This document shows, piece by piece, positions 36,631 through 55,449 of a stretch of DNA of 64,000 nucleotides. Made by a program: the position numbers and the translations under genes. Origin of the DNA: Microbulbifer taiwanensis (GTDB taxonomy: Bacteria; Pseudomonadota; Gammaproteobacteria; Pseudomonadales; Cellvibrionaceae); the NCBI RefSeq assembly GCF_014904815.1, contig NZ_JACZFR010000007.1, positions 1 through 64,000 of the forward strand, read 5' to 3'. The notes beneath the pieces were generated by a model, which did not search any database, was not told the DNA's origin, and saw nothing but the letters and a program-made list of their open reading frames with translations. The number at the start of each line of letters is the position of its first letter. Position 1 is the first letter of the stretch.

Positions 36631-36648
36631 TGTGAGATATCTCGCACA
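36631..36648 (+). promoter_or_regulatory. Candidate GacA-type upstream activating site
   Basis: TGTGAGATATCTCGCACA is an 18-base near-palindrome that fits the TGTAAG-N6-CTTACA consensus at 9 of 12 fixed positions. It lies about 55-70 bases before the proposed start of the GGA-rich RNA. Confidence 0.35.
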
Positions 36649-36699
36649 CGAATTTCAGCCGTTTGCCTCTACTTTTTTCTCCCCCGCTGTCCATAATGT

Positions 36700-36828
36700 A
36701 ATTGCAAGGATGCATAAGGGACTGCACTTCAGCGGCAAGGGATTAAGGGATTGCGCCGCTCGCTCAACGGATTTGGGCACCATCCTGTGAGACGCACCGC
36801 CCGGGCCGGATTGCCTGGGCGGTGTTTT
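36700..36828 (+). ncRNA. Candidate CsrB/RsmY/Z-type CsrA-sequestering RNA
   Basis: About 125 bases carry six GGA motifs, several in single-stranded loops: TGCA-AGGA-TGCA (36703-36714), AAGGGAC next to it, a 6-bp hairpin AGCGGC/GCCGCT (36731-36760) whose loop holds two AAGGGAT motifs, and ACGGAT (36768). A terminator hairpin CACCGCCC/GGGCGGTG (36795-36824) has GGA in its loop and is followed by TTTT. Such clustering is the hallmark of RNAs that titrate CsrA/RsmA. A GacA-like site lies upstream. No protein frame fits. Promoter hexamers are weak (CATAAT at 36692). Confidence 0.5.
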
Positions 36829-37068
36829 ATTGGGCCCGCGCAAAACCCCGGATTTCGATCGCTCTCTGTTTTCCCTCCTCTTCCCCACTGATTTCCTTGT
36901 CTGGAAATTGCAACAATTATCCGCTTTAATCAGTTCAGCCCGGCAATAAATTTACAGTGCCGGCGGAGGGTGATGCATTCAGTAAGTCAGTGCTAGCAGT
37001 GTCCGCTTCCCTACAGTCGCCAATGCGCTGGTGGCCGACACCCTTCTCACCTTTGAATTCCTACAAGA

Positions 37069-39889: not shown

Positions 39890-40966
39890 TTACTCAGTCT
39901 GTGAGCCGATTATCTCCTCGCAGTTCCGCAGCAGCGCGTCCATTTCCTCATCCGTGCCGATGGAGATACGTAAGTACTCACTGATGCGCGGCTTGTTGAA
40001 ATAGCGCACCAGTATGCCCCGCTCGCGCAGGGCCAGGTACAGAGCCTCAGCGCCAGGCCCGGGCGGCCGCGCCAGTACGAAATTGGCCTTCGACGGCACC
40101 ACGTCGAAGTCCAGCTCCCGCAGTGCCTGCACGGTGCTCTCGCGGGTGGCGATCACCTTGCCGCAACAGTCCGCCAGGTGGGCGCTGTCATCGATGGCGG
40201 CAGCGGCCAGGCGTTGGGCTATGGCGTCGATGGGGTAGGAGTTGAAGGAGTTTTTGGTGCGGTTGAGGCCATCGATCAGCGGCTGCTGACCCATGGCGAA
40301 GCCCAGGCGCAGGCCGGCCAGCGCATAGGACTTGGACAGCGTGTGTGTCACCAACAGGTTGGGGTAGCGGTCGATCAGCGGCACCGCACTCTCACCGCCA
40401 AAGTCGATATAGGCCTCGTCGATCACCACCACCCGCTCGGGCTGAAGTTGCAGCAGCTTTTCGATTTCTTCCAACGGCAGATAGCGCCCGCTGGGTGCAT
40501 TGGGATTGGGGAGTATCACGCCGGCGGCGGGGCCGCTGTAGTCCTCTACCGCCAGGCTGAAATCGTCGCGCAGCGGGGGCGTGCGGTACTCGATGCCGTA
40601 CAGCTGGCAGTAGACGGGATAAAAGCTGTAGGTGATATCCGGGAACAGCAGTGGCGCGTTATGGCGGAAGAAACTGTAGAAACTGTGCGCCAGCACTTCG
40701 TCGGAACCGTTGCCGACAAACACCTGTTCCGGCTGCAGGTCAAAGCGCTCGGCAATGACCGCGCGCAGCTCGCAGGACTCGGGGTCCGGGTAGCGGCGCA
40801 GGGCATCGGCCAGCTGTGCGTCGCCGAGGATTTCCAGGGCGCGCGGTGACGGCGGGTAGGGGCTTTCGTTGGTATTGAGCTTGATCAACTTGCGCCCGCG
40901 CGGCTGCTCGCCCGGCACATAGGGTTCCAGCTTTTCGAGCCCGGGGCTCCAGAATGGACTGCTCAT
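39890..40966 (-). CDS. hisC: Histidinol-phosphate aminotransferase
   Basis: A 358-residue class II aminotransferase making histidinol phosphate. KLNTNESPYPPSPRAL near residues 28-43, NGSDEVLA near 85, DEAYIDFGGES near 163-173 and the PLP lysine in THTLSKSYALAGLRLG near 210 are all conserved. Its start overlaps the stop of the FHA membrane-protein gene by 4 bases (ATGA). That coupling to a signalling gene, away from the his operon, is unusual and suggests a second hisC copy with a special role. Confidence 0.93.
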   Translation of the reverse strand: MSSPFWSPGLEKLEPYVPGEQPRGRKLIKLNTNESPYPPSPRALEILGDAQLADALRRYPDPESCELRAVIAERFDLQPEQVFVGNGSDEVLAHSFYSFFRHNAPLLFPDITYSFYPVYCQLYGIEYRTPPLRDDFSLAVEDYSGPAAGVILPNPNAPSGRYLPLEEIEKLLQLQPERVVVIDEAYIDFGGESAVPLIDRYPNLLVTHTLSKSYALAGLRLGFAMGQQPLIDGLNRTKNSFNSYPIDAIAQRLAAAAIDDSAHLADCCGKVIATRESTVQALRELDFDVVPSKANFVLARPPGPGAEALYLALRERGILVRYFNKPRISEYLRISIGTDEEMDALLRNCEEIIGSQTE

Positions 40967-42015
40967 GATTCTGCCTCCGCTGTGTCACCTTCCCCGTTGT
41001 CGGGAGCGACTGTCTCCTCATCGGTTTCTTTCGATTCTTCGTTCTTTTTTTCGATCGGGATATCAAACAGCGTCGGTGAGCTGGCGATGAACTGCTTCAT
41101 CGGCACCGGCTTGCGCAGCAGCAGGTCGTCGTACTTGAGTTCGGTGGAAATCTCCGGAATTTCACTGAAGTCATTCAGGCTGCCGATTTCCTCTGCCAGG
41201 CCCAGGCCGAGAAATCCCCAGGGCAGAACCAGGGCAGCGGCCCAGCGCCAGCCGCGGGAAAGGTTGGTCGCCAGGTAGCAGGCGCACCAGAGCATGGCCG
41301 GCAGCAGTATGGCCAGCACCAGGAAATCGAGCATTGACGTGGTGTTGGCCATGGCGAAATTGTAATTCAGCAGGCTGCTGAGCCACTCCCAGCCGGTAAA
41401 GACCAATGCGCCCAGGGCGGCGATCGACAGGTGAGTGAAGAAGTGCGTCTCGTGGCGCACCACCCGGCCGATAAAAGCCCAGGCACCGGCGTACACCAGC
41501 AGACCGATCACGCTACCGGACAGCAGATTGACCGCGATGGTCCACTCGTAGTTGCGCGCATAGCCGAGGTAGCTGACCAGCAGCGTGCACAGGGCCACGG
41601 CCAGCAACAGGCCGATGGCCCCGGCCGGGTGTGACAGCCCCGCGAAAAAACTCTCCAGTGAGTGCAGGGGCACGGCTTCCGGCAGCGCAGCCTCGCTGTG
41701 GCTGAGGCGCAGGTGGGTCTTGCCGAACTGCACCAGGTCGCCGGACTCGATCATGCGCTCGGAAACAGCGCCGGGCTTGATCGACTTGTCATGCAGGTTT
41801 CCCAATAGTTGGGTGCCGTTGACGCTGTTCAGGTCGTGCAGGTAATAGCAGCCGTCCTCGCCGAGGCGGATTTCCGCGTGGTGGGCGTCCGCGTGTACAT
41901 CCTCGAGGATAATATCGTTGTCGTAGCCGCGGCCGACGGTGAGCCTGTCGTCCTCCATGCGATAGCGGGCATGCACCCGGTGGGAGCGGTTGATCTCTTC
42001 GATAATCAGTGCCAT
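40963..42015 (-). CDS. Membrane protein with N-terminal FHA domain
   Basis: A 350-residue protein. An FHA domain (about 18-105) has the phosphothreonine-binding GRGYDNDI, HxxI-type HAEI and NSVNGT elements. Five hydrophobic segments follow (about 145-300), then a soluble tail that ends in an acidic, Glu/Thr-rich stretch. It should bind phosphothreonine partners in the cytosol at the membrane. I chose the ATG at 42015 because the FHA fold begins there. It overlaps the protease gene by 10 bases and hisC by 4, so all three are coupled. The kinases at 50-55 kb are candidate partners. Confidence 0.8.
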   Translation of the reverse strand: MALIIEEINRSHRVHARYRMEDDRLTVGRGYDNDIILEDVHADAHHAEIRLGEDGCYYLHDLNSVNGTQLLGNLHDKSIKPGAVSERMIESGDLVQFGKTHLRLSHSEAALPEAVPLHSLESFFAGLSHPAGAIGLLLAVALCTLLVSYLGYARNYEWTIAVNLLSGSVIGLLVYAGAWAFIGRVVRHETHFFTHLSIAALGALVFTGWEWLSSLLNYNFAMANTTSMLDFLVLAILLPAMLWCACYLATNLSRGWRWAAALVLPWGFLGLGLAEEIGSLNDFSEIPEISTELKYDDLLLRKPVPMKQFIASSPTLFDIPIEKKNEESKETDEETVAPDNGEGDTAEAES

Positions 42016-43319
42016 TGGATCTCGCTTGTGAACTTCTCGGTAAAGGCCGCGGCGGATTCCCGGGTAAATCCGGACAGGGTGAAATGGCTGACCAGGGCGC
42101 GGTTCTTCCGATCCACACTCAGGCTCAGGAAGAAGATGTCGTACAGATCCGGGAAGTCCTTGTAGCGGCGCACGCAATAGCTGGTGCGCGCGACTATCGG
42201 CTCCCGGTTCTGTTGCGGCTTGGAGACGGGTTCCTCACCGTCGCGCTTCTCTCCAACGCGCTCCTGGGCGGTAAAGGACTGGCGGCACCGGAAATTGGTC
42301 ACATCTTCCTCACCGGCCGCATTGCCGGGGTAAAAGCTGCTCATCTGCTGCTCGTACTCGGCGTAGAAGCGCGACGGCAGCAGGTCTTCTGCCTCCAGCC
42401 AGAAGAACTCATATTCCACCCGACCGGAGTTGAAATCATCGGCGAGAAAGACCACGTCCTGGCCGGTGCAGCCCTTGTCAATGCGCTTGACCGGATTGTC
42501 GTCATCTTCCTGGGTATTACCCCAGCACTGGATGGCCGGCACTATTTCCCCGACCACCTTGGCCTCGCCCAGGGCGCGCCGCTGCCAGTCCGCCTGCAAG
42601 ATGGATTCGATAATGCGCTGCTGGTTGTCGAGCAGTTGCCGGTGCGTCACTTCTTTCAGGTCCAGGGAGTTGCCCTCCTGGCGGAAATGCTTCTGCAGCG
42701 CAGCGAGCTTATCCACCGGCACCAGGAAGCTGACCTGGTTGCCGGCGGTGGCCACGTTGATGCCCACCACATGGCCGCGGGTGTTGATCGCCGGGCCGCC
42801 ACTCATGCCCGGGTTGATGGAGCCGGCGAAGTGGATGCGATCGTAGAAGCTGCCGCTGGCAATGCCGTTGTAGGTGCCGGGGATCAATGTCATGCCCAGG
42901 TCCAGCGGATTGCCGAGGGACACGATGGTCTCGCCCTTTTTCGGGGTGTCCGTGGCCAGCTGAATATGTTCCGCGCCGGGCTTGTCCTGGCGCAGCAGCG
43001 CCAGGTCGTTGATCACGTCTATATCCAGCAGCTCGAGATTGCCCTTGGCACCGTCCACCGACAGGTACTCCAGCTGGTACTTGTCCGGATCACTCACGGC
43101 CTCGGCCACCACGTGGTAATTGGTGGCAATCAGGCCGTCGGGGGAGATCTGGAAACCGGAGCCGAGCCCGGCCTTGGAGTTGGAGGATTTTTCAATCAGG
43201 CGAATCTGGTAGAGGCTGCCGCGATATTCACTGTAGAGCTGTTCGTAGCTCTGCGCTGAGGCGAATGCGGAACAACAACAAAACAACAGGGCCAGCAGGC
43301 GCGCGCAAAGGTTTGGCAT
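42006..43319 (-). CDS. Exported trypsin-like serine protease (S1C-type)
   Basis: A 437-residue protein with a signal peptide (ends FASA near residue 22). The catalytic triad is His69 (TNYHVV), Asp105 (VINDLALL) and Ser173 (NPGMSGGP). No PDZ domain follows; the C-terminal 230 residues are unfamiliar and contain several cysteines. It could be a periplasmic DegP-like protease without PDZ. Its coupling to the FHA membrane protein suggests it takes part in the same response. Confidence 0.8.
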   Translation of the reverse strand: MPNLCARLLALLFCCCSAFASAQSYEQLYSEYRGSLYQIRLIEKSSNSKAGLGSGFQISPDGLIATNYHVVAEAVSDPDKYQLEYLSVDGAKGNLELLDIDVINDLALLRQDKPGAEHIQLATDTPKKGETIVSLGNPLDLGMTLIPGTYNGIASGSFYDRIHFAGSINPGMSGGPAINTRGHVVGINVATAGNQVSFLVPVDKLAALQKHFRQEGNSLDLKEVTHRQLLDNQQRIIESILQADWQRRALGEAKVVGEIVPAIQCWGNTQEDDDNPVKRIDKGCTGQDVVFLADDFNSGRVEYEFFWLEAEDLLPSRFYAEYEQQMSSFYPGNAAGEEDVTNFRCRQSFTAQERVGEKRDGEEPVSKPQQNREPIVARTSYCVRRYKDFPDLYDIFFLSLSVDRKNRALVSHFTLSGFTRESAAAFTEKFTSEIQWH

Positions 43320-47366: not shown

Positions 47367-49058
47367 TTACGGTCGCTTTATTCCTGTTGTTTTTGGAGCA
47401 GAGAATGCATTCCTATTTGTGATAAGCGTCTGTGTGGCTCCTCCAGGTTGAGAATATCCGCACTGAGTTGTCGGCGCAATCTTAGATTGGAAGACATCAA
47501 TATCTTGCAGCGCTTCAACTTCAACAATGTCAAATTTATCTGTTTGTTGGCTTTCCAGTGGGATTCCCAATTGATCGCTGATCTCGTCGTAGCTTAGCCC
47601 TTCCAGAAGATCAATATCCTTTTGGGTGGCAAAATATGCGGAGTGATCTCCGGGCATGGTGCCTTCAGGCACAATTTTATATAATTTTTGACCTTTTCGA
47701 ATCGTTATTTTTTCAGGCAGGGTGCTTCCGCTTTTAATTAGCTGCTCGGCGTAACCCACTGCAGTTTCCAAATCTGTTCCCTGAGATCTATATGATTCGA
47801 CGACCGCTCTTCCTTGAGGGGTTTGCATGGGAAGATTATTAATGCCGTGAGTCTTATAGGTTTTCCAGCTGTCAGGCTCTGGCCGTTCTCTTTTCGGAAT
47901 TTCAGTTCTGCTAGTTGGTTTTGACGATTCTGGTTTGGATGACGGCTTAGCATGGTTTGTCCTGCCTGGATTGACTTCTTTTACATCCGTAACGTCCTCG
48001 ACGGTGAAATCGCCAAATGAACGACTAGGTCCATTCCCCTTGGCCGAACTCCGACGTAATCGCTGTCTGACTTTCCTGATCTGTTCTGCGAACTCGACCA
48101 GTAGATCGCCGACTTTGCGGAACTTGGCCAGGTGCCGCGCCTGGCTTGCTGCGCCGACCGCCAGGCCGGCGCCGGCGGTGACGGCGGCCAGCACCAGAGT
48201 GAACAGCACTTCGAAAGCGGCGCCGCCGGAGACTTCGGTGAGCTCTATGGCGTGTTGGGCGCTGACATAGTCTTTGGCAAAGCGGGTGATATCGGCGCGC
48301 AGGGTCGGGTCATCCCAGATGAGGTCGGCCACTTCCATGGCCTGATCCAGCTGTTCTGTGGTGATGGCGGTGGGGTCGAAGCCCAGGGCCTGCACCAGTT
48401 CGCGCTTCTCTCCCTTCAGCTGTTCATCGGCATAGGCGGCGAAGACATTCTCGTCGTTTTCCCGGTTGCGCTGCAGGGCTCGGTGGCTGGCTTGCAGGCT
48501 GCGCAGCAGGCGCTGGGTGGGGCTGATGACGTCGCTGACCTCTTTGGCCCACTGGGCGAGGTCGACGCCGGCGTTCCAGAGGCCGTTGAAAAAGGCGCCG
48601 GTGTAGATCAGGGCACGATTGAACTGGGTTTCCCCGGCCAGCATTTGTGTGTGTTGGGCGGCCTCGACCTTTTCCTGGGCGATGATGGCGGCAAGTGCCT
48701 GGCGGATCCTGATCCGCAGTATGGCCCGTCTGTCCTCTTCTTCGCCCTGCTGTTCGCCGCTGCCGAGACTTACGAGGATCAACTCGTGGTTACAGAGGGC
48801 CTGGGCCAGCTCTTCGCGGGGGCAGAGGGGCGCCACTCCGCCGTCGAGCCGCTCCTGTCGCCAACTGTCCAGCAGGGGGAATTGACCCAGGTGATAGAAG
48901 TGCGCGCGGGCCTGCCCCAACTGGAAGCTGTCCACCCGGGAAAGGAGCCAGTCTGCCTGGGCGTGGTGCGTGGCGATGCTGTCAGTGAGGGGGATTCGGC
49001 TACCGCGATCGAGGCGGTAGCGGTTGCCCTGGGGGTCCGTCAGGTCGAAGTGCGACAT
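47367..49058 (-). CDS. Polymorphic toxin with TNT-like C-terminal tip
   Basis: A 563-residue mosaic. Residues 1-335 are GC-rich scaffold: an N-terminal domain opening SHFDLTDPQGNRYRLDRGSR, a helical middle, and a hydrophobic glycine/alanine-rich segment near 285-310 (VLAAVTAGAGLAVGAAS). From about 335 the DNA turns AT-rich and encodes a charged linker and a tip. The final 110 residues end in a pattern (Q-S-K-IAPT, then SQPGGATQ) that resembles the TNT NAD-glycohydrolase family's closing QPGG-Q motif; the match is partial. No signal peptide is visible. An immunity candidate follows immediately. Delivery route is unknown. Confidence 0.6.
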   Translation of the reverse strand: MSHFDLTDPQGNRYRLDRGSRIPLTDSIATHHAQADWLLSRVDSFQLGQARAHFYHLGQFPLLDSWRQERLDGGVAPLCPREELAQALCNHELILVSLGSGEQQGEEEDRRAILRIRIRQALAAIIAQEKVEAAQHTQMLAGETQFNRALIYTGAFFNGLWNAGVDLAQWAKEVSDVISPTQRLLRSLQASHRALQRNRENDENVFAAYADEQLKGEKRELVQALGFDPTAITTEQLDQAMEVADLIWDDPTLRADITRFAKDYVSAQHAIELTEVSGGAAFEVLFTLVLAAVTAGAGLAVGAASQARHLAKFRKVGDLLVEFAEQIRKVRQRLRRSSAKGNGPSRSFGDFTVEDVTDVKEVNPGRTNHAKPSSKPESSKPTSRTEIPKRERPEPDSWKTYKTHGINNLPMQTPQGRAVVESYRSQGTDLETAVGYAEQLIKSGSTLPEKITIRKGQKLYKIVPEGTMPGDHSAYFATQKDIDLLEGLSYDEISDQLGIPLESQQTDKFDIVEVEALQDIDVFQSKIAPTTQCGYSQPGGATQTLITNRNAFSAPKTTGIKRP

Positions 49059-49149
49059 ATCCGTGTCTGTAGTTGTTCTGTGTGCGTCGATTCTAGGGGC
49101 AGTTGAGATGCGGAATCAATCGAACCAGTCGTAATTCCTGCACTTCAGA

Positions 49150-49563
49150 GAGGGAAAGCCCTTGTGGCTGATCAGTAAGTGACCTGCCGTGTAATGCTGT
49201 GTAATGGGGTGTGATCGACCTGTAATCGGCGAGTCCGTAAAGTAGCGCACAGAGTTGAGGGGCTGAGCACGCCACAGTGGATTGAGGCGCTCCGCCTAGG
49301 GAAAGGCAGGCCCCGCAACATCGAATCCGAAGGATCGGATTTCTGTGCCCCAGTGGCACAGTGTGGAAAGGAGACCCATTCAGCGCAAGCTGAACTGTCA
49401 AGCCGGGCTCGGCAAACACAGAGCCTACGTCTGCCGAGATTTGGGGAAGGGCTTGACCGGGGCACGGATGCCTCATTTCGCTCTTGATAGTGTTGTTGTA
49501 ACCGTCGATGGCTGGGACCATCAATTCGGGCCGGTAGTAACGCAGTTACTACCGGCTTTTTTT
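49150..49563 (+). ncRNA. Unassigned large structured RNA candidate
   Basis: About 400 bases with no convincing protein frame but many perfect stems. They are GTTG-A-GGGGC/GCCCC-G-CAAC (49254-49263 with 49310-49319), inner AGGCG/CGCCT, AATCCGA/TCGGATT (49324-49341), CTGTGCC/GGCACAG (49343-49361), TTCAGC-GCAA-GCTGAA with a GNRA tetraloop (49379-49394), GTCAAGCC/GGCTTGAC (49397-49404 with 49450-49457) and, nested inside it, CTCGGCA/TGCCGAG (49408-49438). A 12-bp terminator follows. It does not show the conserved cores of RNase P RNA, tmRNA, 6S or SRP RNA that I know. A group II intron remnant cannot be excluded. Confidence 0.5.
49530..49563 (+). terminator. Strong terminator of the structured RNA
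   Basis: GCCGGTAGTAAC/GTTACTACCGGC is a perfect 12-bp stem with a three-base loop, followed by seven T. Confidence 0.9.
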
Positions 49564-49700
49564 ATGGAATTTTCATTGAATTGTAGTCGGGCTAATATTT
49601 CTCACCCGGTTTTATTCGAGTATGCTTCAGAGTGTGCGGTAATTCACAAAACTGATTTAACCTTAATAAAAAACACACTGACCATTTATAGGGGTGGACC

Positions 49701-50180
49701 ATGAGTGTATGTAACGATTTGCCGGTACTGGAATGCGATGTGCCGAGGGAGGGGATTGAGCTGGATCTCGTGCTGCAGCCGAGGGAACCGGTCAACGGCG
49801 AGCCGCAGTACTGGCCGCTGTACAACGCCGAAAACCCGGGGGAGCACTTCGGCAATATGCGCTTCCGCTTCGGCGGCAACCGCGGCCTGGTCAAGCTGAC
49901 CATTACGCTGGACCTGTCGGCAGTGCCGGGGCGGGAGCTGGAGTTCTCCAACTGCGGTCGCGGGCGGTTGGACGGCATTATCGCCCTGAGCCCGGATTTC
50001 CGTCACCAGTTCTGGTCCCGGGCCAGGCGGGTGCGTGGTGAATACACCAAGCTGGTGATCTGGATCAGGGACCGGGAGGATATTCCGGATAACTTCGCAT
50101 TCTTGTGGCTGTGTGAGGATGTGGATACTGGTATGCACTTCGTGTCCGGTGACCCTATGGTGCGGTACGAGCCGGAGTGA
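49701..50180 (+). CDS. Hypothetical protein (159 residues)
   Basis: A soluble protein with several predicted beta strands (IELDLVLQP, GLVKLTITLDL, YTKLVIWIRD) and no signal peptide. It ends FVSGDPMVRYEPE. I do not recognise a domain. It lies 137 bases after the structured RNA's terminator, on the same strand, and is convergent with the first kinase gene, whose stop is the next base. The GC content is host-like. It could be part of the kinase locus or work with the RNA; neither is shown. Confidence 0.7.
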   Translation: MSVCNDLPVLECDVPREGIELDLVLQPREPVNGEPQYWPLYNAENPGEHFGNMRFRFGGNRGLVKLTITLDLSAVPGRELEFSNCGRGRLDGIIALSPDFRHQFWSRARRVRGEYTKLVIWIRDREDIPDNFAFLWLCEDVDTGMHFVSGDPMVRYEPE

Positions 50181-52736
50181 TCAGTAGCAGATAGCGGTCT
50201 TCACGTCGGTGGAAACCTGGGGCTGGGTGCAGAGCTGCTGGAAGGCCGGCAGGTTGAACCACTCTGTGCTCATGCCCTGTTGTAGCAGCTTTTCTATATG
50301 ATAATTGGCAGATCTCGGTTCCTGGGCCAGAGCGTATACTTGTGCAGCCATGTAACTTGCATAGGTATAGTCGGGAGCTTGCTGAAGTAGTTCGTTTACC
50401 ATTGAAATGGCGGTTGAAAACTGGTCTAAGTTGGCAAGTGCGATAGCTTGATACCAGCGTTTTTCTAACGTATCGGCGTTGCTGGTAATTTCTAATAGCT
50501 GTTGGAAGCTGGCTTTTGCATTTTGGACGTCGCCTAGCACCAGATAAGTCTCTGCTATTTGACCCATCGTTGGGATGTCACTGGGTGCCGTTTCTAGTAT
50601 TTGCTGGAAGGTTTGCAGGGCAAGGTCATACTTTTCTTGTAAAAAGTAAGCGACGCCGAGGTTGGACTTTGTCCGCCAGCCGCGCAGCTCCTCGGGGATT
50701 GAGATGAAAGCCACTTCAGCAGCTGACAGGTTACCGCTTTCCAGTTCTATGCCTCCTAGCGTGGAATAGGATGACCAATGCTCCGGAAAAGTTTCTATGA
50801 TTCTTTCCAATACAGTGTGTGCCCGGGCGTAATCCCCGCTTACAGCATGATTCAGAGCAATCAGGTATAGGTTGTCGGCCGAAGGGTTAAGCGCGGCCGC
50901 CTCCTGCGCATAGCGCAATCCGGCCTCGTAGTCTCCCTGTGTAAACTGAAAACGCGCATACTTGGCCAGCAGAGCCGCGGACGGCGCCTCCTGCTCATGG
51001 ATTTTTTCTAGCAATAAATCGAACTGACTCTTGTCAGTACTATAGGTGCGCAACCAGATTTCCTGCTCCAGCAGTTGCTGCTCATCTATATTGCGGTGCT
51101 TTGCTCGCTCAAGCATCGCCAGTCCGCGAGATAGATATGGTGCGCTATCCGTCTGAACAAACAGCTTGGCAGAGACACTTGTATAAACTGCGTAGAGATT
51201 GGCATTGTTCGGATACTGCTCAATCATTGTTTCTATTAGCGTCAGGTCCTCCTCTTTGAGGTCTTTTTGCTCCAAGCGACTGAGAATGTCCAGATACTGG
51301 TTGTAGCTTGCATCCGGCATCAATTCCTGTTCGCCGGAGTCTTTTACATAGTTACGAGGAAACAAGGCTGCCGCGCTATTGGCAATACGGTATTCCGCCT
51401 CCTGCCGCTTATCTGTCAGGAAAGCAAAACTCGCCTGCTGCCTGATCCGGCTGTCCACGGGTCCAATCCGCTGCAATTCAACCTCACACCGCACCCGCGC
51501 ACACTCCAGCCGCGCAAACAGCGCATCGGTCACTCCTTTGTCCCGCAGCGCGTGCAGCTGTGCATCCAGATCCTGCCCCTCCTTGGGCGTAAAGCTGACC
51601 AGCGCGGAGGCCTTCAGCTGCGAAGCGGCATTCATCAGCGCCTGGCGCACCATGGTCGCGGTCAGCTGTTTGGCATTCTCCTCACCGCGCACCTCGCCGT
51701 TGATCTCCACCGGTAGCACGGCGATATATTGCGGCTCCAGGCGGGTGGCGTATTCCCAGCCGAAATAGCCGGCCACGCAGACGGCGGCGGTGCCGGCTGC
51801 GCCGATAAGCGCATTGAGCGCGCGGCGGTGCCGGCCCGGTGGCTTGCGCAGCAATTGGGTAACCGTGGCGGAAAGCTCCTGGGTGTCGGTATCGTCCGAC
51901 TGGTGCTGGTAGAGGAAATGGATCGCTTCGTAGACCTGCTGCGCCGATTCCGGCCGCTTTTCGGCGCGCTTGCTCAGCAATTTGTCCAGCAGCGCGGCCA
52001 GCGGGTCCGGCAGCCTGGCGTAGACCTGCTGCGGCGGTATATGGGGTTCGTTGATAATGCGCTGCGCCAGGGCCAGGGAGCCGCCCTGGCCTTTCTCGAA
52101 CGGCCTGGCGCCGCACAGGAGTTCGTAGGCGATGGCGCCGAGGCCGAACAGGTCGCTGCGGGTGCACAGCGGGTAGCCCTGCAGCTGCTCCGGCGACATG
52201 GCCTCGATGGTGCCGGCCACATGGTCCTCACGGGTAATACTATCGGCGTCGGGCTGCTGGGATTTGGCGATGCCGAAGTCGGTGATCTTGGCGATGCCGG
52301 TGAAGGTGATCAGGATATTGTCGGGCTTGAGGTCGCGGTGGATGATGCCGAGGGAATGGGCTTCGCCCAGGCCCTGGCAGATCTGCATCAGCAGGCCGAG
52401 TTTTTCCCGCAGCGGCGCGCTGTGTTCGCGCATCCACTCCTTGAGGGTGGTGCCCTCGACGTATTCCATCACCAGGGCTATGCCGCCGTCCTCTTCGAGC
52501 ACGTCGTAGAGCTGGACGATATTCGGGTGGTTGAGTTTGGCCAGCAGCTGGGCTTCGCTGTGGATGCGGGCACTGGCGGATTCACCGGCGGCGTCCCTGC
52601 GCAGTTTCTTGATCGCGACCTGGCGCTGCAGGCGGGTGTCTTCAGCCAGGTAGACGACGCCCATGCCGCCCGCGCCGAGAGTGCGCTCTATGCGGTAGCG
52701 GCCCAGTTGTGCCTGTTCCGGTTCGGCGACTTCCAT
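50181..52736 (-). CDS. Ser/Thr protein kinase with C-terminal TPR region (first)
   Basis: An 851-residue membrane kinase. The Hanks-type domain (about 12-275) has the glycine loop GAGGMGVVY, Lys43, HRDLKPDN with Asp135 and DFG with Asp153, so it should be active. A single membrane segment lies near residues 315-335. The rest is periplasmic by topology, with a TolB-N-like region (YIAVLPVEI) and helical TPR-like repeats near 600-840. It likely senses an outside cue and phosphorylates threonines in FHA partners. It lies 118 bases after the second kinase gene on the same strand. Confidence 0.85.
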   Translation of the reverse strand: MEVAEPEQAQLGRYRIERTLGAGGMGVVYLAEDTRLQRQVAIKKLRRDAAGESASARIHSEAQLLAKLNHPNIVQLYDVLEEDGGIALVMEYVEGTTLKEWMREHSAPLREKLGLLMQICQGLGEAHSLGIIHRDLKPDNILITFTGIAKITDFGIAKSQQPDADSITREDHVAGTIEAMSPEQLQGYPLCTRSDLFGLGAIAYELLCGARPFEKGQGGSLALAQRIINEPHIPPQQVYARLPDPLAALLDKLLSKRAEKRPESAQQVYEAIHFLYQHQSDDTDTQELSATVTQLLRKPPGRHRRALNALIGAAGTAAVCVAGYFGWEYATRLEPQYIAVLPVEINGEVRGEENAKQLTATMVRQALMNAASQLKASALVSFTPKEGQDLDAQLHALRDKGVTDALFARLECARVRCEVELQRIGPVDSRIRQQASFAFLTDKRQEAEYRIANSAAALFPRNYVKDSGEQELMPDASYNQYLDILSRLEQKDLKEEDLTLIETMIEQYPNNANLYAVYTSVSAKLFVQTDSAPYLSRGLAMLERAKHRNIDEQQLLEQEIWLRTYSTDKSQFDLLLEKIHEQEAPSAALLAKYARFQFTQGDYEAGLRYAQEAAALNPSADNLYLIALNHAVSGDYARAHTVLERIIETFPEHWSSYSTLGGIELESGNLSAAEVAFISIPEELRGWRTKSNLGVAYFLQEKYDLALQTFQQILETAPSDIPTMGQIAETYLVLGDVQNAKASFQQLLEITSNADTLEKRWYQAIALANLDQFSTAISMVNELLQQAPDYTYASYMAAQVYALAQEPRSANYHIEKLLQQGMSTEWFNLPAFQQLCTQPQVSTDVKTAICY

Positions 52737-52854
52737 AGCCTTTTATTCTTGTTGGTGGTTGTAAATTCCGTTACATCCGTTTCCCTGCCAGGTCCCGATC
52801 GAGTCTCTGGGAAGGTGGGGCGCAGCCTAGTTTACCGATTTACAGGCAAGCGTA

Positions 52855-55449
52855 CTATTTCTGTGCGACCTGGGTGTTTTCCTTTCTCTTGCTGCAGAGT
52901 TCCGGGAAGTCGCCGCGCAGGCCGGCGAAGTCGGTGCGCTTGCATACCGGCGCGAAGCGCTCGGTGTTGAGCCAGATGGGCGACATGCCCAGTTCCAGGG
53001 TCTTGCGGATATGCGCCATGGCGGAGTTGAGGTCGCCGCCGGTGATATAGATCTGGGCGCGGGCGTAGTTGACGTAGAGGTCGTCCGGGGCCTGGCGGCG
53101 GATCTTCAACAGGGCGTCCACGGCGCGGTCGGCCTGGCCGAGTTCGGCATGGGCGCGGGCGCGCATCAGTATGCCCTCCCAGTCCTCGCGCCCATCGGTC
53201 AGCGCCAGGGCGCGCTCGGCCAGTGCCTGTGCCTTCTGTGGCAGCTGCTGGGCCCGCGCTATCTCTGCCTTGTAGAGCAGCGGATCGGCATCTTTCGGTG
53301 CGCTCTCCACCACGCGGTCAAAGCAGTTCTGTGCGCGCTCGAACTGGCGCTCTATGTAGTGGGCGAGGCACAGGTTGTAGGTATCCATGGCGCCGAGCTT
53401 GTCCAGGCCGAGGCTGTTGAGTAGTCGAATGGCTTCCCCCGGGTTGCCGCTGTCCAGCTCTATGGCGGCGAGCAGGGATAGGGTATCGCTATCGTTATCG
53501 CTCAGCTGCAGTGACTGCAGCAGGTAGTCTTTGGCCTCGTCCAGGTCGCCGCGGGCGCTCAGGGCCAGGGCCTTCTGGCGCAGATAGGTTGCGCTGGTGC
53601 GCAGGGCCAGCGCCCTGTCCATGGCTTGCAGCGCCTTATCGTATTCACTGCGTGTCTGGTGGTAGATGGCGCGCAGGTGGTAGTAACTGGCCTGGTCGGG
53701 GATCGTCAGTTGCAGCTGCGAAAGCAGCGCCTGTGCGCGGCTTACTTCGTTATTGATGGCGGCCAGGCGCAGTTCGGCGGCGAGCAGGGCCGGGTGATCA
53801 GCAATTTCCCGCGGCGCGCGCCGCAGTGCCCGCTCAAATCGCTTGGTGGACTCGGCACTGCGGGTGTTGAACTGATGATCGATCACCAGCTCGCTGAGCA
53901 GTTCGTAATAGGGCGGGAAGCCAGGATTTTTTTCCAGCAACGCTTCCAGGGCGGATACCGATTGCTCCAGGCTGGTTTCATCGTGGCGCCGTTCGTACAG
54001 CTCCAGGTAGCGCTGGTAGTCGTCGGTGCTGATATTGAAGCGCGCTTCACTTTCCTGCGTCGGGTGGCCGGGCAGCAGGTAATTGAGCTGTTGCAGGGTG
54101 CGCGCGCGGCTCCCCAGGCTCTCCTGGATTTCCAGTGTGGTATTGCGGCTGGCGGCGACGGAAAAGTTTGCCGTGTCGATCAGCTCCAGCGAGGCCTCGC
54201 AGTGGACTCTTTCACAGGAGATCGTCGGCTGCAGCAGCAGCTGGGCATTCAGGGCCCGGGCCTGTTCCTGCAGCGGCTGCCCGCGCAGGCGTTCGGACTC
54301 GGAGTAGGGCACCAGGAAGAGGCCCTCGCGGTTCGAGAGGCCCTGCTTGATGGCGCTCAGCACATTGCTGACGAGGAGCCGGGCTTCGCGGCTGCCCGAG
54401 GCACTCTCCGCAGGTGCGACTATGGCGATGTATTTGCCTTTAGTCTCGCGCTGCGATTCCGGCAGCAGGACGGCGGCTGCCGCAACCAGCAATGTCATGC
54501 AGCCTGCGAGGGCGGCGCCCGCCAGGATTCTGCGGTGCCGGACCCTGCGCCGCTGGTTGCGGTGGAAGCCCTCGGCGGTGATGGTCACGGTGCGGCTGAT
54601 GGTACCCGCGGTATTGGCATCCAGGTCCATCTGTACTGCGTCCAGCTCCGCCGCCACTGCGGTGGCGTTCAGCGGGCGCTTGTCCGGGTTTTTTGTCAGC
54701 AACCTGTCGAGCAGCTGGCACAGTGCCGGGGGCAGGTCCGGATTCATTTTCGCCGCCGGTGGATGCTGGCTGTTGACGATGCGATCGACGATGATGAATG
54801 GACTTTCGTGATCGCCAAACGGGCTCTGCCCGCACAGCAGCTTGTAGGCCAGTACGCCCAGGGCGAAGAGATCGCAGCGGTTGTCGAGGTCCTTGCCCAG
54901 GGCCTGTTCCGGTGACATGGCACCCCAGGTACCGGCGACATGCTGCTCGCGGGTCAGGTCGCTGTTCTCGCGCCAGTTTTTGGCGATGCCGAAATCCGTA
55001 ATCTTGGCGGTGTTGTTCTCGTCGATGAGGATATTGTCGGATTTCAGGTCGCGGTGGATGATGCCGACCGTGTGGGCGCGGGCGAGACCGTAGCAGATCT
55101 GCCTCAGTAGCTGGATTTTCTGCTGCAGGTTGGGGTTGCGCTCGCGCTGCCAGTGCTCGAGGGTGCTGCCCTCCACATACTCCATCACCAGGGCGACGTC
55201 GTCCCGCTCTTCCACCACATCGTAGATCTGCACTATGTTGCTGTGGTTGAGCTGGGCTAAGAGTAGTGCCTCCTTGCGGATGCGCAGGTGTGCCGTGCTG
55301 CTGGTGGGGTTCTTGACCAATCGCTTGATGGCGACGCGGCGGTGCAGGCGTTCGTCGGTGGCCAGGTAGACCACACCCATGCCGCCAGAGCCGAGTTGCC
55401 CGGTTACCTTGTATCGCCCGATATAAAACGGTAATTGCTCTGACGTCAT
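52855..55449 (-). CDS. Ser/Thr protein kinase with C-terminal TPR region (second)
   Basis: An 864-residue paralogue of the downstream kinase with the same architecture: kinase domain (about 11-270; GSGGMGVVY, Lys42, HRDLKSDN with Asp134, DFG with Asp152), one membrane segment near 312-333, and a TPR-rich C-terminal half (about 470-850, many ALALRTSATY- and AEIARAQQLP-type helices). It is probably active. A short gap links it to the FHA/winged-helix gene upstream, so the three genes appear to form one operon. Confidence 0.85.
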   Translation of the reverse strand: MTSEQLPFYIGRYKVTGQLGSGGMGVVYLATDERLHRRVAIKRLVKNPTSSTAHLRIRKEALLLAQLNHSNIVQIYDVVEERDDVALVMEYVEGSTLEHWQRERNPNLQQKIQLLRQICYGLARAHTVGIIHRDLKSDNILIDENNTAKITDFGIAKNWRENSDLTREQHVAGTWGAMSPEQALGKDLDNRCDLFALGVLAYKLLCGQSPFGDHESPFIIVDRIVNSQHPPAAKMNPDLPPALCQLLDRLLTKNPDKRPLNATAVAAELDAVQMDLDANTAGTISRTVTITAEGFHRNQRRRVRHRRILAGAALAGCMTLLVAAAAVLLPESQRETKGKYIAIVAPAESASGSREARLLVSNVLSAIKQGLSNREGLFLVPYSESERLRGQPLQEQARALNAQLLLQPTISCERVHCEASLELIDTANFSVAASRNTTLEIQESLGSRARTLQQLNYLLPGHPTQESEARFNISTDDYQRYLELYERRHDETSLEQSVSALEALLEKNPGFPPYYELLSELVIDHQFNTRSAESTKRFERALRRAPREIADHPALLAAELRLAAINNEVSRAQALLSQLQLTIPDQASYYHLRAIYHQTRSEYDKALQAMDRALALRTSATYLRQKALALSARGDLDEAKDYLLQSLQLSDNDSDTLSLLAAIELDSGNPGEAIRLLNSLGLDKLGAMDTYNLCLAHYIERQFERAQNCFDRVVESAPKDADPLLYKAEIARAQQLPQKAQALAERALALTDGREDWEGILMRARAHAELGQADRAVDALLKIRRQAPDDLYVNYARAQIYITGGDLNSAMAHIRKTLELGMSPIWLNTERFAPVCKRTDFAGLRGDFPELCSKRKENTQVAQK

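Follow-up and report, generated by a model that had tools for sequence, protein, structure and literature searches.

Organisation of the locus

The stretch of DNA analysed here (the window: 64,000 nucleotides at the start of contig NZ_JACZFR010000007.1 of Microbulbifer taiwanensis) contains a free-standing RNA gene at positions 49188-49563 of the forward strand. The gene begins with a promoter array of four boxes, continues with a structured RNA of about 310 bases, and ends in a terminator. The transcript predicted from these features probably spans positions ~49249 to 49560 of the same strand, both ends being approximate. An earlier sequence-only reading had treated all of 49150-49563 as RNA. 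Most of this stretch stands as such, but its beginning does not: conservation starts around 49188, the first hairpin (49150-49163) is not conserved, and positions 49190-49226 correspond to the conserved promoter-like array.

We extracted the copies of the locus, which range from 394 to 695 nt in length (429 in the window), and based most counts on 58 of them. This set leaves out duplicates (L001, L025, and L027, as well as L010 and L014, which duplicate copies in L053 and L055), four short partial matches, and the copies of the divergent genome G034 and of the sister-genus genome G054, which are discussed separately. The array (49190-49226, forward strand) has four boxes with a period of 10-11 bp: TGTAAT at 49190-49195, TGTAAT at 49200-49205, TGTGAT at 49210-49215, and TGTAAT at 49221-49226. 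Exact boxes are found in 50, 50, 50, and 47 of the 58 copies, from the first box to the fourth, and a search of the M. taiwanensis genome with the first 34 bases of the array, allowing up to three mismatches, gives this single place. The array boxes are followed by GTANAGT, which includes a -10-like element (TAAAGT, 49238-49243, forward strand; consensus TANAGT); positions 49237-49239 are kept in 57-58 of the 58 copies. This arrangement points to a promoter and to an RNA start near 49249, and a regulator bound to the TGTAAT array would switch on such a promoter near 49240. The TGTAAT half-site resembles that of the GacA box (TGTAAG-N6-CTTACA, as given in the excerpt of PMC4950607), but the array is a direct repeat and not a palindrome. 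We found no GacA box with up to three mismatches between 47487 and 50502, which places the RNA outside the RsmX/Y/Z group in the narrow sense. In the sister genus the array is kept only in part, as judged by eye.

The intrinsic terminator (49530-49563, forward strand) has a 12-bp stem at 49530-49556 followed by a T-run, as had been noticed earlier. Its support comes from its conservation among copies, because shuffles of the region also give terminator-like sites (1.3 on average). The gene has its own putative promoter, recognised by conservation, and its own terminator, and is non-coding as judged on its 3' region.

No Rfam covariance model, including those of CsrB, RsmY, and PrrB_RsmZ, matches positions 49050-49720 at E-values up to 10, and none matches the 64-kb window at the gathering score, which led us to reject the identification with a known Rfam RNA. 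There is no tRNA or tmRNA in the window either; the earlier reading had not matched the sequence to RNase P, tmRNA, 6S, or SRP RNA. The RNA thus belongs to a family lacking an Rfam model. No such RNA is described in the titles and beginnings of abstracts of the open-licence literature on small RNAs or CsrA in Microbulbifer, and a word search of the main text of a study of predicted RsmA-binding RNAs (PMC5568370) did not retrieve this genus. The result is a genus-wide RNA family that escapes Rfam and yields testable predictions on its loops, stems, and promoter.

Structure model of the RNA

All the stems proposed from the sequence alone are present. The RNA would fold into a chain of hairpins, several of which have ANGGAN loops, with an additional unpaired GGA in a central domain. 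The following elements are all on the forward strand. The 5' domain (49254-49319) is closed in our model by a helix between GTTGAGGGGC (49254-49263) and GGCCCCGCAAC (49309-49319), both arms of which we read by eye in the 58 copies. This is the least certain part of the model, because both the single-sequence fold and the consensus fold of copies prefer other pairs. The minimum-energy fold (-133.6 kcal/mol, compared with -108.8 for the structure model) uses other long-range pairs, and the consensus fold of the 38 insert-free copies pairs AGGGGC with the start of the 26-base element described below instead of forming the closing helix. The 5' domain and the part that comes after it also vary in length among copies. 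A hairpin in this domain, GCCT-AGGGAA-AGGC (49294-49307), has GGA in its hexaloop. It is followed by AATCCG-AAGGAT-CGGATT (49324-49341), with an ANGGAN hexaloop, by CTGTGCC-CCAGT-GGCACAG (49343-49361), whose loop lacks GGA, and by the hairpin with the GNRA tetraloop GCAA that the first reading had also picked out (TTCAGC-GCAA-GCTGAA, 49379-49394). In the latter, 95.7% of the cells of the covariation alignment are paired and two of the six pairs changed on both sides.

The central domain (49397-49457) is formed by an 8-bp helix that encloses one of 7 bp (49408-49414 with 49432-49438), so that the stem at 49408-49438 lies within a longer one, as claimed before. Seven of the eight outer pairs and five of the seven inner pairs changed on both sides, even if the inner helix is paired in only 73.9% of the cells. 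A possible pseudoknot between 49405-49408 and 49423-49426, which shares position 49408 with the nested helix, is suggestive only: 81.2% of its cells are paired, and one of its four pairs covaries (17 G-C versus 11 A-U). The GGA in the internal loop of this domain (49445-49447) is present at the aligned columns in 47 of the 58 copies. The next hairpin, GGGGC-ACGGAT-GCCTC (49459-49474), has an ANGGAN hexaloop whose GGA is found in 56 of the 58 copies. The last one, GATGG-CTGGGA-CCATC (49507-49522), carries GGA at the end of the loop (52 of 58 copies); 99.5% of its cells are paired, and its pairs hardly vary. Between these last two GGA hairpins, ahead of the terminator, lies a 26-base element, GCTCTTGATAGTGTTGTTGTAACCGT (49480-49505), that is probably mostly single-stranded.

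Comparative evidence for a conserved non-coding RNA

The folding energy alone is only mildly unusual (z = -2.09, with 3 of 100 shuffles as stable), and the evidence for the RNA comes from comparison. We built a covariance model (R1) that covers the 3' region with 151 positions and 31 pairs, and measured covariation in an alignment (A1) of 39 of the 52 distinct sequences. Pairing is preserved in 90.3% of the cells. Shuffles preserve it in 85.5%, and versions in which the structure was slid never exceed 45.4%. Fifteen of the 31 pairs changed on both sides, where the shuffles give 10.2 on average and only 2 of 500 reach this value; cells changed on both sides number 86 versus 28.5 in shuffles. 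The number of further pair types (38 versus 35.3) is not above that of the shuffles, 62 of 500 of which reach it. Each control has a weakness: the shuffles are lenient because the copies are related, whereas sliding keeps the relatedness but favours a structure derived from the consensus. By eye, the sister genus shows rewritten stems in an unchanged order of parts.

We rejected the possibility of a coding region. Of the frames through the 3' region, even the best stays open in only 31 of the 58 copies, and the spacings between landmarks vary by single bases among copies; in the window and some relatives, one frame does read through the 26-base element. Taken together, genus-wide presence and covariation confirm by comparison that the RNA is real. 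The sequence-only reading had offered three interpretations (a new regulatory RNA, a group II intron remnant, or the RNA part of a toxin-antitoxin system) and named Rfam searches and covariation among homologues as checks. Both agree with the first interpretation; the two others fail, as detailed below.

Distribution and copy number

BLAST found the RNA in 47 of the 48 Microbulbifer genomes, that of M. taiwanensis included, the one miss being an 80% complete genome (G034). The covariance model recovered it in all 48, G034 included (E = 3.8e-11). In the 144 genomes of the family that were searched, its one clear match outside the genus is in a sister-genus genome (G054, E = 4.7e-19), where the RNA adjoins the same protein-kinase gene (48% identity). 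The remaining matches in genomes of the family are weak (E of 1e-4 or worse). A sample of 390 genomes of the order, searched with stricter filters under which weak matches are lost, gave ten Microbulbifer genomes and G240 (E = 8.2e-4) at E-values up to 0.001. We judged the weak matches in G076, G122, G080, G062, G108, G087, and G240 to be due to chance: the DNA of the first five shows no array, terminator, or neighbours of the locus, and G087 has no match to the proteins of the window. A 23-base pattern from the conserved element matches 29 contig stretches, all from Microbulbifer. BLAST gave no match in plasmids and phages, and the exact pattern none in viral contigs, leading us to reject spread by mobile elements.

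Some genomes encode several copies. Two have five each, within 26 kb (G024) and 20 kb (G036), and three have two each (G029, G035, and G039). There are also weak second matches in G008, G020, and G034. The five-copy regions (G024 C2:249971-275740 and G036 C1:4975744-4995108; L052-L055) also hold homologues or fragments of the toxin gene of the window, and G024 has lone fragments of the promoter array. A gene in L055 encodes what we take to be an IS256-type transposase.

GGA hexaloops suggest a CsrA sponge

The copy of the window has nine GGA, eight of which lie outside stems in the structure model. We counted hexaloops with GGA at loop positions 3-5 (xxGGAx) on 4-bp stems in 57 copies (one copy, whose box was not recognised, is missing from this comparison). 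They make up 115 of 481 loops. In 50 dinucleotide shuffles, the average was 6.0 of ~250 loops and no shuffle exceeded 11. No other triplet is as common as GGA at these loop positions. To lessen the effect of shared ancestry, we also counted distinct hairpins in the 58 copies: 43 have GGA, on 21 different stems, while the next triplet is found on 11 stems. Nearly all of these distinct GGA loops (40 of 43) begin with A. The contrast with the surroundings of the gene is strong, with 114 ANGGAN loops in 20,434 nt of RNA (5.6 per kb) versus 7 in 184,960 nt of flanking sequence (0.04 per kb; 578 segments, both strands), and the antisense strand of the RNA has none even of the looser xxGGAx loops. 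The species-specific inserts that lengthen some 5' domains again hold GGA hairpins (e.g., CGTT-AAGGAA-AACG). In the sister genus, the hairpin corresponding to 49459-49474 has a replaced stem (GGTGC/GCACC) and a kept GGA loop (AAGGAA).

The excerpt of PMC7652899 describes the enriched form as the loop that RsmE/CsrA binds, and for this reason we favour the reading of the RNA as a sponge that sequesters CsrA (RsmA), to which we give a probability of about 0.77. At least one xxGGAx hexaloop is present on a 4-bp stem in 44 of the 58 copies, and on a 3-bp stem in 56; 40 copies have at least two on 4-bp stems, so that multiple GGA in hairpin loops of the ANGGAN form, as expected of a sponge, are common. 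CsrA itself is also encoded by most of the hosts: genes of its family were found in 42 of the 48 Microbulbifer genomes, M. taiwanensis included, and in the sister genus. Even a protein search found none in the other six; in G001, counted among the 42, csrA runs into a stretch that was left out, and the six misses may share this cause. By analogy with the Csr/Rsm RNAs, CsrA dimers would bind the GGA sites and be drawn off mRNA leaders, freeing these mRNAs from repression.

The RNA shares with CsrB/CsrC of Escherichia coli and RsmX/Y/Z of Pseudomonas its free-standing nature, several ANGGAN loops, an intrinsic terminator, a host CsrA, and multiple copies in some species. Multi-copy csrB genes are described as usual in the excerpt of PMC6262261. 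In contrast to these RNAs, that of Microbulbifer lacks an Rfam match, has TGTAAT direct repeats instead of TGTAAG-N6-CTTACA, and contains a central domain with a possible pseudoknot, a nearly invariant 26-base element, and an insert of variable length. Sponges that are not activated by GacA exist, such as RsmW of P. aeruginosa and CsrC of Yersinia, which is under PhoP (excerpt of PMC4950607); the RNA would resemble them in this respect, the sequences having been compared through Rfam. It differs from RsmW, for which the same excerpt gives a 3'-UTR origin and bands of 400 and 120 bases. Judging from its sequence, the locus most likely encodes a CsrA sponge of the CsrB/RsmZ type that represents a new sequence family and carries a further conserved module. 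We discarded a candidate match to RF00166: the best one in the M. taiwanensis genome (27.2 bits, for a cut-off of 44) corresponds to a terminator-like hairpin behind a gene, and matches below the cut-off are also found in 8 of 14 control genomes.

Several observations count against the sponge. Among them are the lack of a nearby GacA box, the six genomes without a CsrA match, the folds that disagree with the structure model, and the further pair types that do not exceed those of shuffles. The density of plain GGA is modest (11.5 per copy versus 8.0 in shuffles). In addition, xxGGAx hexaloops on 4-bp stems are missing from 14 of the 58 copies, of which 12 have one on a 3-bp stem (the shuffle control covers 4-bp stems) and two have none. 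These 14 copies form a single clade of 11 genomes, the same 11 that have at least five CsrA hits (5 to 27), compared with 0 to 2 in the other 37. The pattern should be regarded as one event and not as a statistic, because the copies belong to one clade. The genomes rich in CsrA are G009, G021, G029, G030, G031, G035, G039, G041, G043, G044, and G045, and the number of hits per genome in the genus ranges from 1 (or none found) to 27. Five of the hits of G035 lie within 17 kb, and this stretch (L136) also has RHS-repeat, pre-toxin, and integrase-type genes.

A nearly invariant element near the 3' end

No stretch of the RNA is better conserved than the 26-base element (49480-49505). It is identical in 54 of the 58 copies, and the highest mean identity of all 20-base bins (0.99) is found over positions 49484-49503. 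Its first 17 bases are also present in the sister genus, whereas the divergent copy of G034 lacks part of it. Consensus folding places a 4-bp hairpin at its start (CGCT-CTTGAT-AGTG), the pairs of which hardly vary. The element is more conserved than any GGA site, and a plain sponge needs no such conservation. That it is kept almost letter for letter suggests that a specific partner reads it in the same way.

Its position roughly corresponds to that of the RNase E site in E. coli CsrB, which lies directly ahead of the terminator in an unstructured segment, beside two CsrA sites (excerpt of PMC5027483), and suggests a site of turnover. In both RNAs, a segment close to the 3' end has little structure. 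Given this rough coincidence, our guess is that the element may govern turnover or bind another partner. An extended scheme, possible but tentative, is that the RNA has two functions: it would act as a sponge and, through a sequence-specific module made of the central domain and the 26-base element, would pair with RNA or bind another protein, and the regulator of the gene would recognise the TGTAAT direct repeats. If this is true, the sponge sites weakened where CsrA multiplied (5-27 hits) while the 26-base element stayed, and a second function can outlive the first.

The same conservation, including that of the 17 bases of the sister genus, could be expected if the RNA were primarily a base-pairing small RNA, with the 26-base element as the seed for one or several mRNAs, the GGA hairpins being secondary, and CsrA only stabilising or tuning it. 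We searched both strands of the M. taiwanensis genome for an 18-base part of the element, allowing up to three mismatches. It occurs in 4 places, the locus included, while the reversed control occurs in 7, and we thus retained no antisense target for this part. Base pairing also leaves the spread of ANGGAN hairpins unexplained, and we regard it as an unlikely primary function. Alternatively, the extreme conservation of the element, together with the central domain, its possible pseudoknot, and its CAGAGYCU loop (conserved, as judged by eye), could betray another kind of structured RNA, such as part of a ribonucleoprotein, an aptamer, or a catalytic RNA, whose GGA loops serve another protein. 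There is no Rfam match at E-values up to 10 to favour such a class, and the enriched loops have the form reported for RsmE/CsrA (excerpt of PMC7652899), making this alternative very improbable.

Independence from the neighbouring genes

A gene encoding a protein of 159 residues (49701-50180, forward strand) follows the RNA, of which it is not a part even if it nearly always adjoins it. An ORF of this kind, with a DP-containing C-terminus, lies downstream of the RNA on the same strand in 45 of 47 genomes, and also in L115 and L116, which extends the order RNA-terminator-protein noticed in the window to most of the genus. Such regularity is what one would expect if the RNA were the 5' leader of this gene and its terminator a regulated attenuator. 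Yet in the 700 bases that follow each of the ten extra copies of the RNA (four in G024, four in G036, one in G035, and one in G029), no ORF of this kind begins. Moreover, in G035 and G029 the copy beside the ORF scores lower (95.3 and 118.8 bits) than the distant one (157.7 and 150.4 bits). Because of these two facts we regard the RNA as independent of the gene, and since the terminator also ends 137 bases ahead of the start codon, a leader seems quite unlikely.

The order RNA-terminator-protein is likewise the only argument for the two readings that failed, a group II intron remnant and the RNA of a type III toxin-antitoxin system with the 159-residue protein, and we consider both practically excluded. 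The intron was rejected since there is no match to Rfam group II models, the promoter-like array and the terminator of the RNA are conserved, and the gene neighbourhood is shared, with a protein-kinase homologue in 44 of 52 loci. The toxin-antitoxin system was rejected since the RNA has no tandem repeats, whose lack had been pointed out from the start, since the protein has no match to a ToxN-type toxin, and since ten copies lack the protein. Apart from the promoter array, the only tandem repeat is a low-scoring one (2.2 units) that straddles the end of the RNA (49559-49582). The window copy of the protein matches neither Pfam nor NCBIfam, toxin families included, and against solved structures a profile search reached only E-values near 1. 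Its relatives diverge fast: they have ~155-165 residues, 21 of them are 20-76% identical to the protein of the window, and S, D, P, and P are invariant at the C-terminus in 22 aligned sequences.

A polymorphic toxin to which the RNA had been tied in the first description is an incidental neighbour: a homologue lies beside the RNA in only 4 of 47 genomes, that of M. taiwanensis included (in flanks of mostly 1.5 kb), and we rejected the link. At 50181-55449 of the window, two neighbouring genes encode Ser/Thr protein kinases of 851 and 864 residues that carry TPR repeats at the C-terminus, and an FHA-domain protein is encoded at 40966-42177.

A second GGA-rich small RNA

A second GGA-rich small RNA gene lies at 36631-36830 of the window. 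The predicted RNA (~36704-36830, ~125 nt) is preceded by a GacA-like box, TGTGAGATATCTCGCACA, and a -10-like element, CATAATGT, and ends in a terminator. It has no Rfam match, and has homologues in all 48 Microbulbifer genomes, with two or three matches in G004, G012, G013, and G014. Its box in the window has three mismatches, and such matches are no commoner than by chance, but a perfect TGTAAG-N6-CTTACA box stands just upstream of the RNA in 18 of the 48 genomes. The two RNAs are alike in being GGA-rich, in their terminators, and in their genus-wide distribution, while the second is shorter, has the GacA box in these 18 genomes, and has fewer GGA loops (1.5 xxGGAx per kb in 23 sequences). 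Since we also take it for a sponge, the rate of GGA loops is not a universal mark of sponges. The two genes are found on the same contig within 25 kb in 42 of the 48 genomes. This suggests that the Csr/Rsm circuit of Microbulbifer includes at least two sponge genes, usually close together and under different promoters, and the two sponges, one of them behind a GacA-type box, may answer two inputs.
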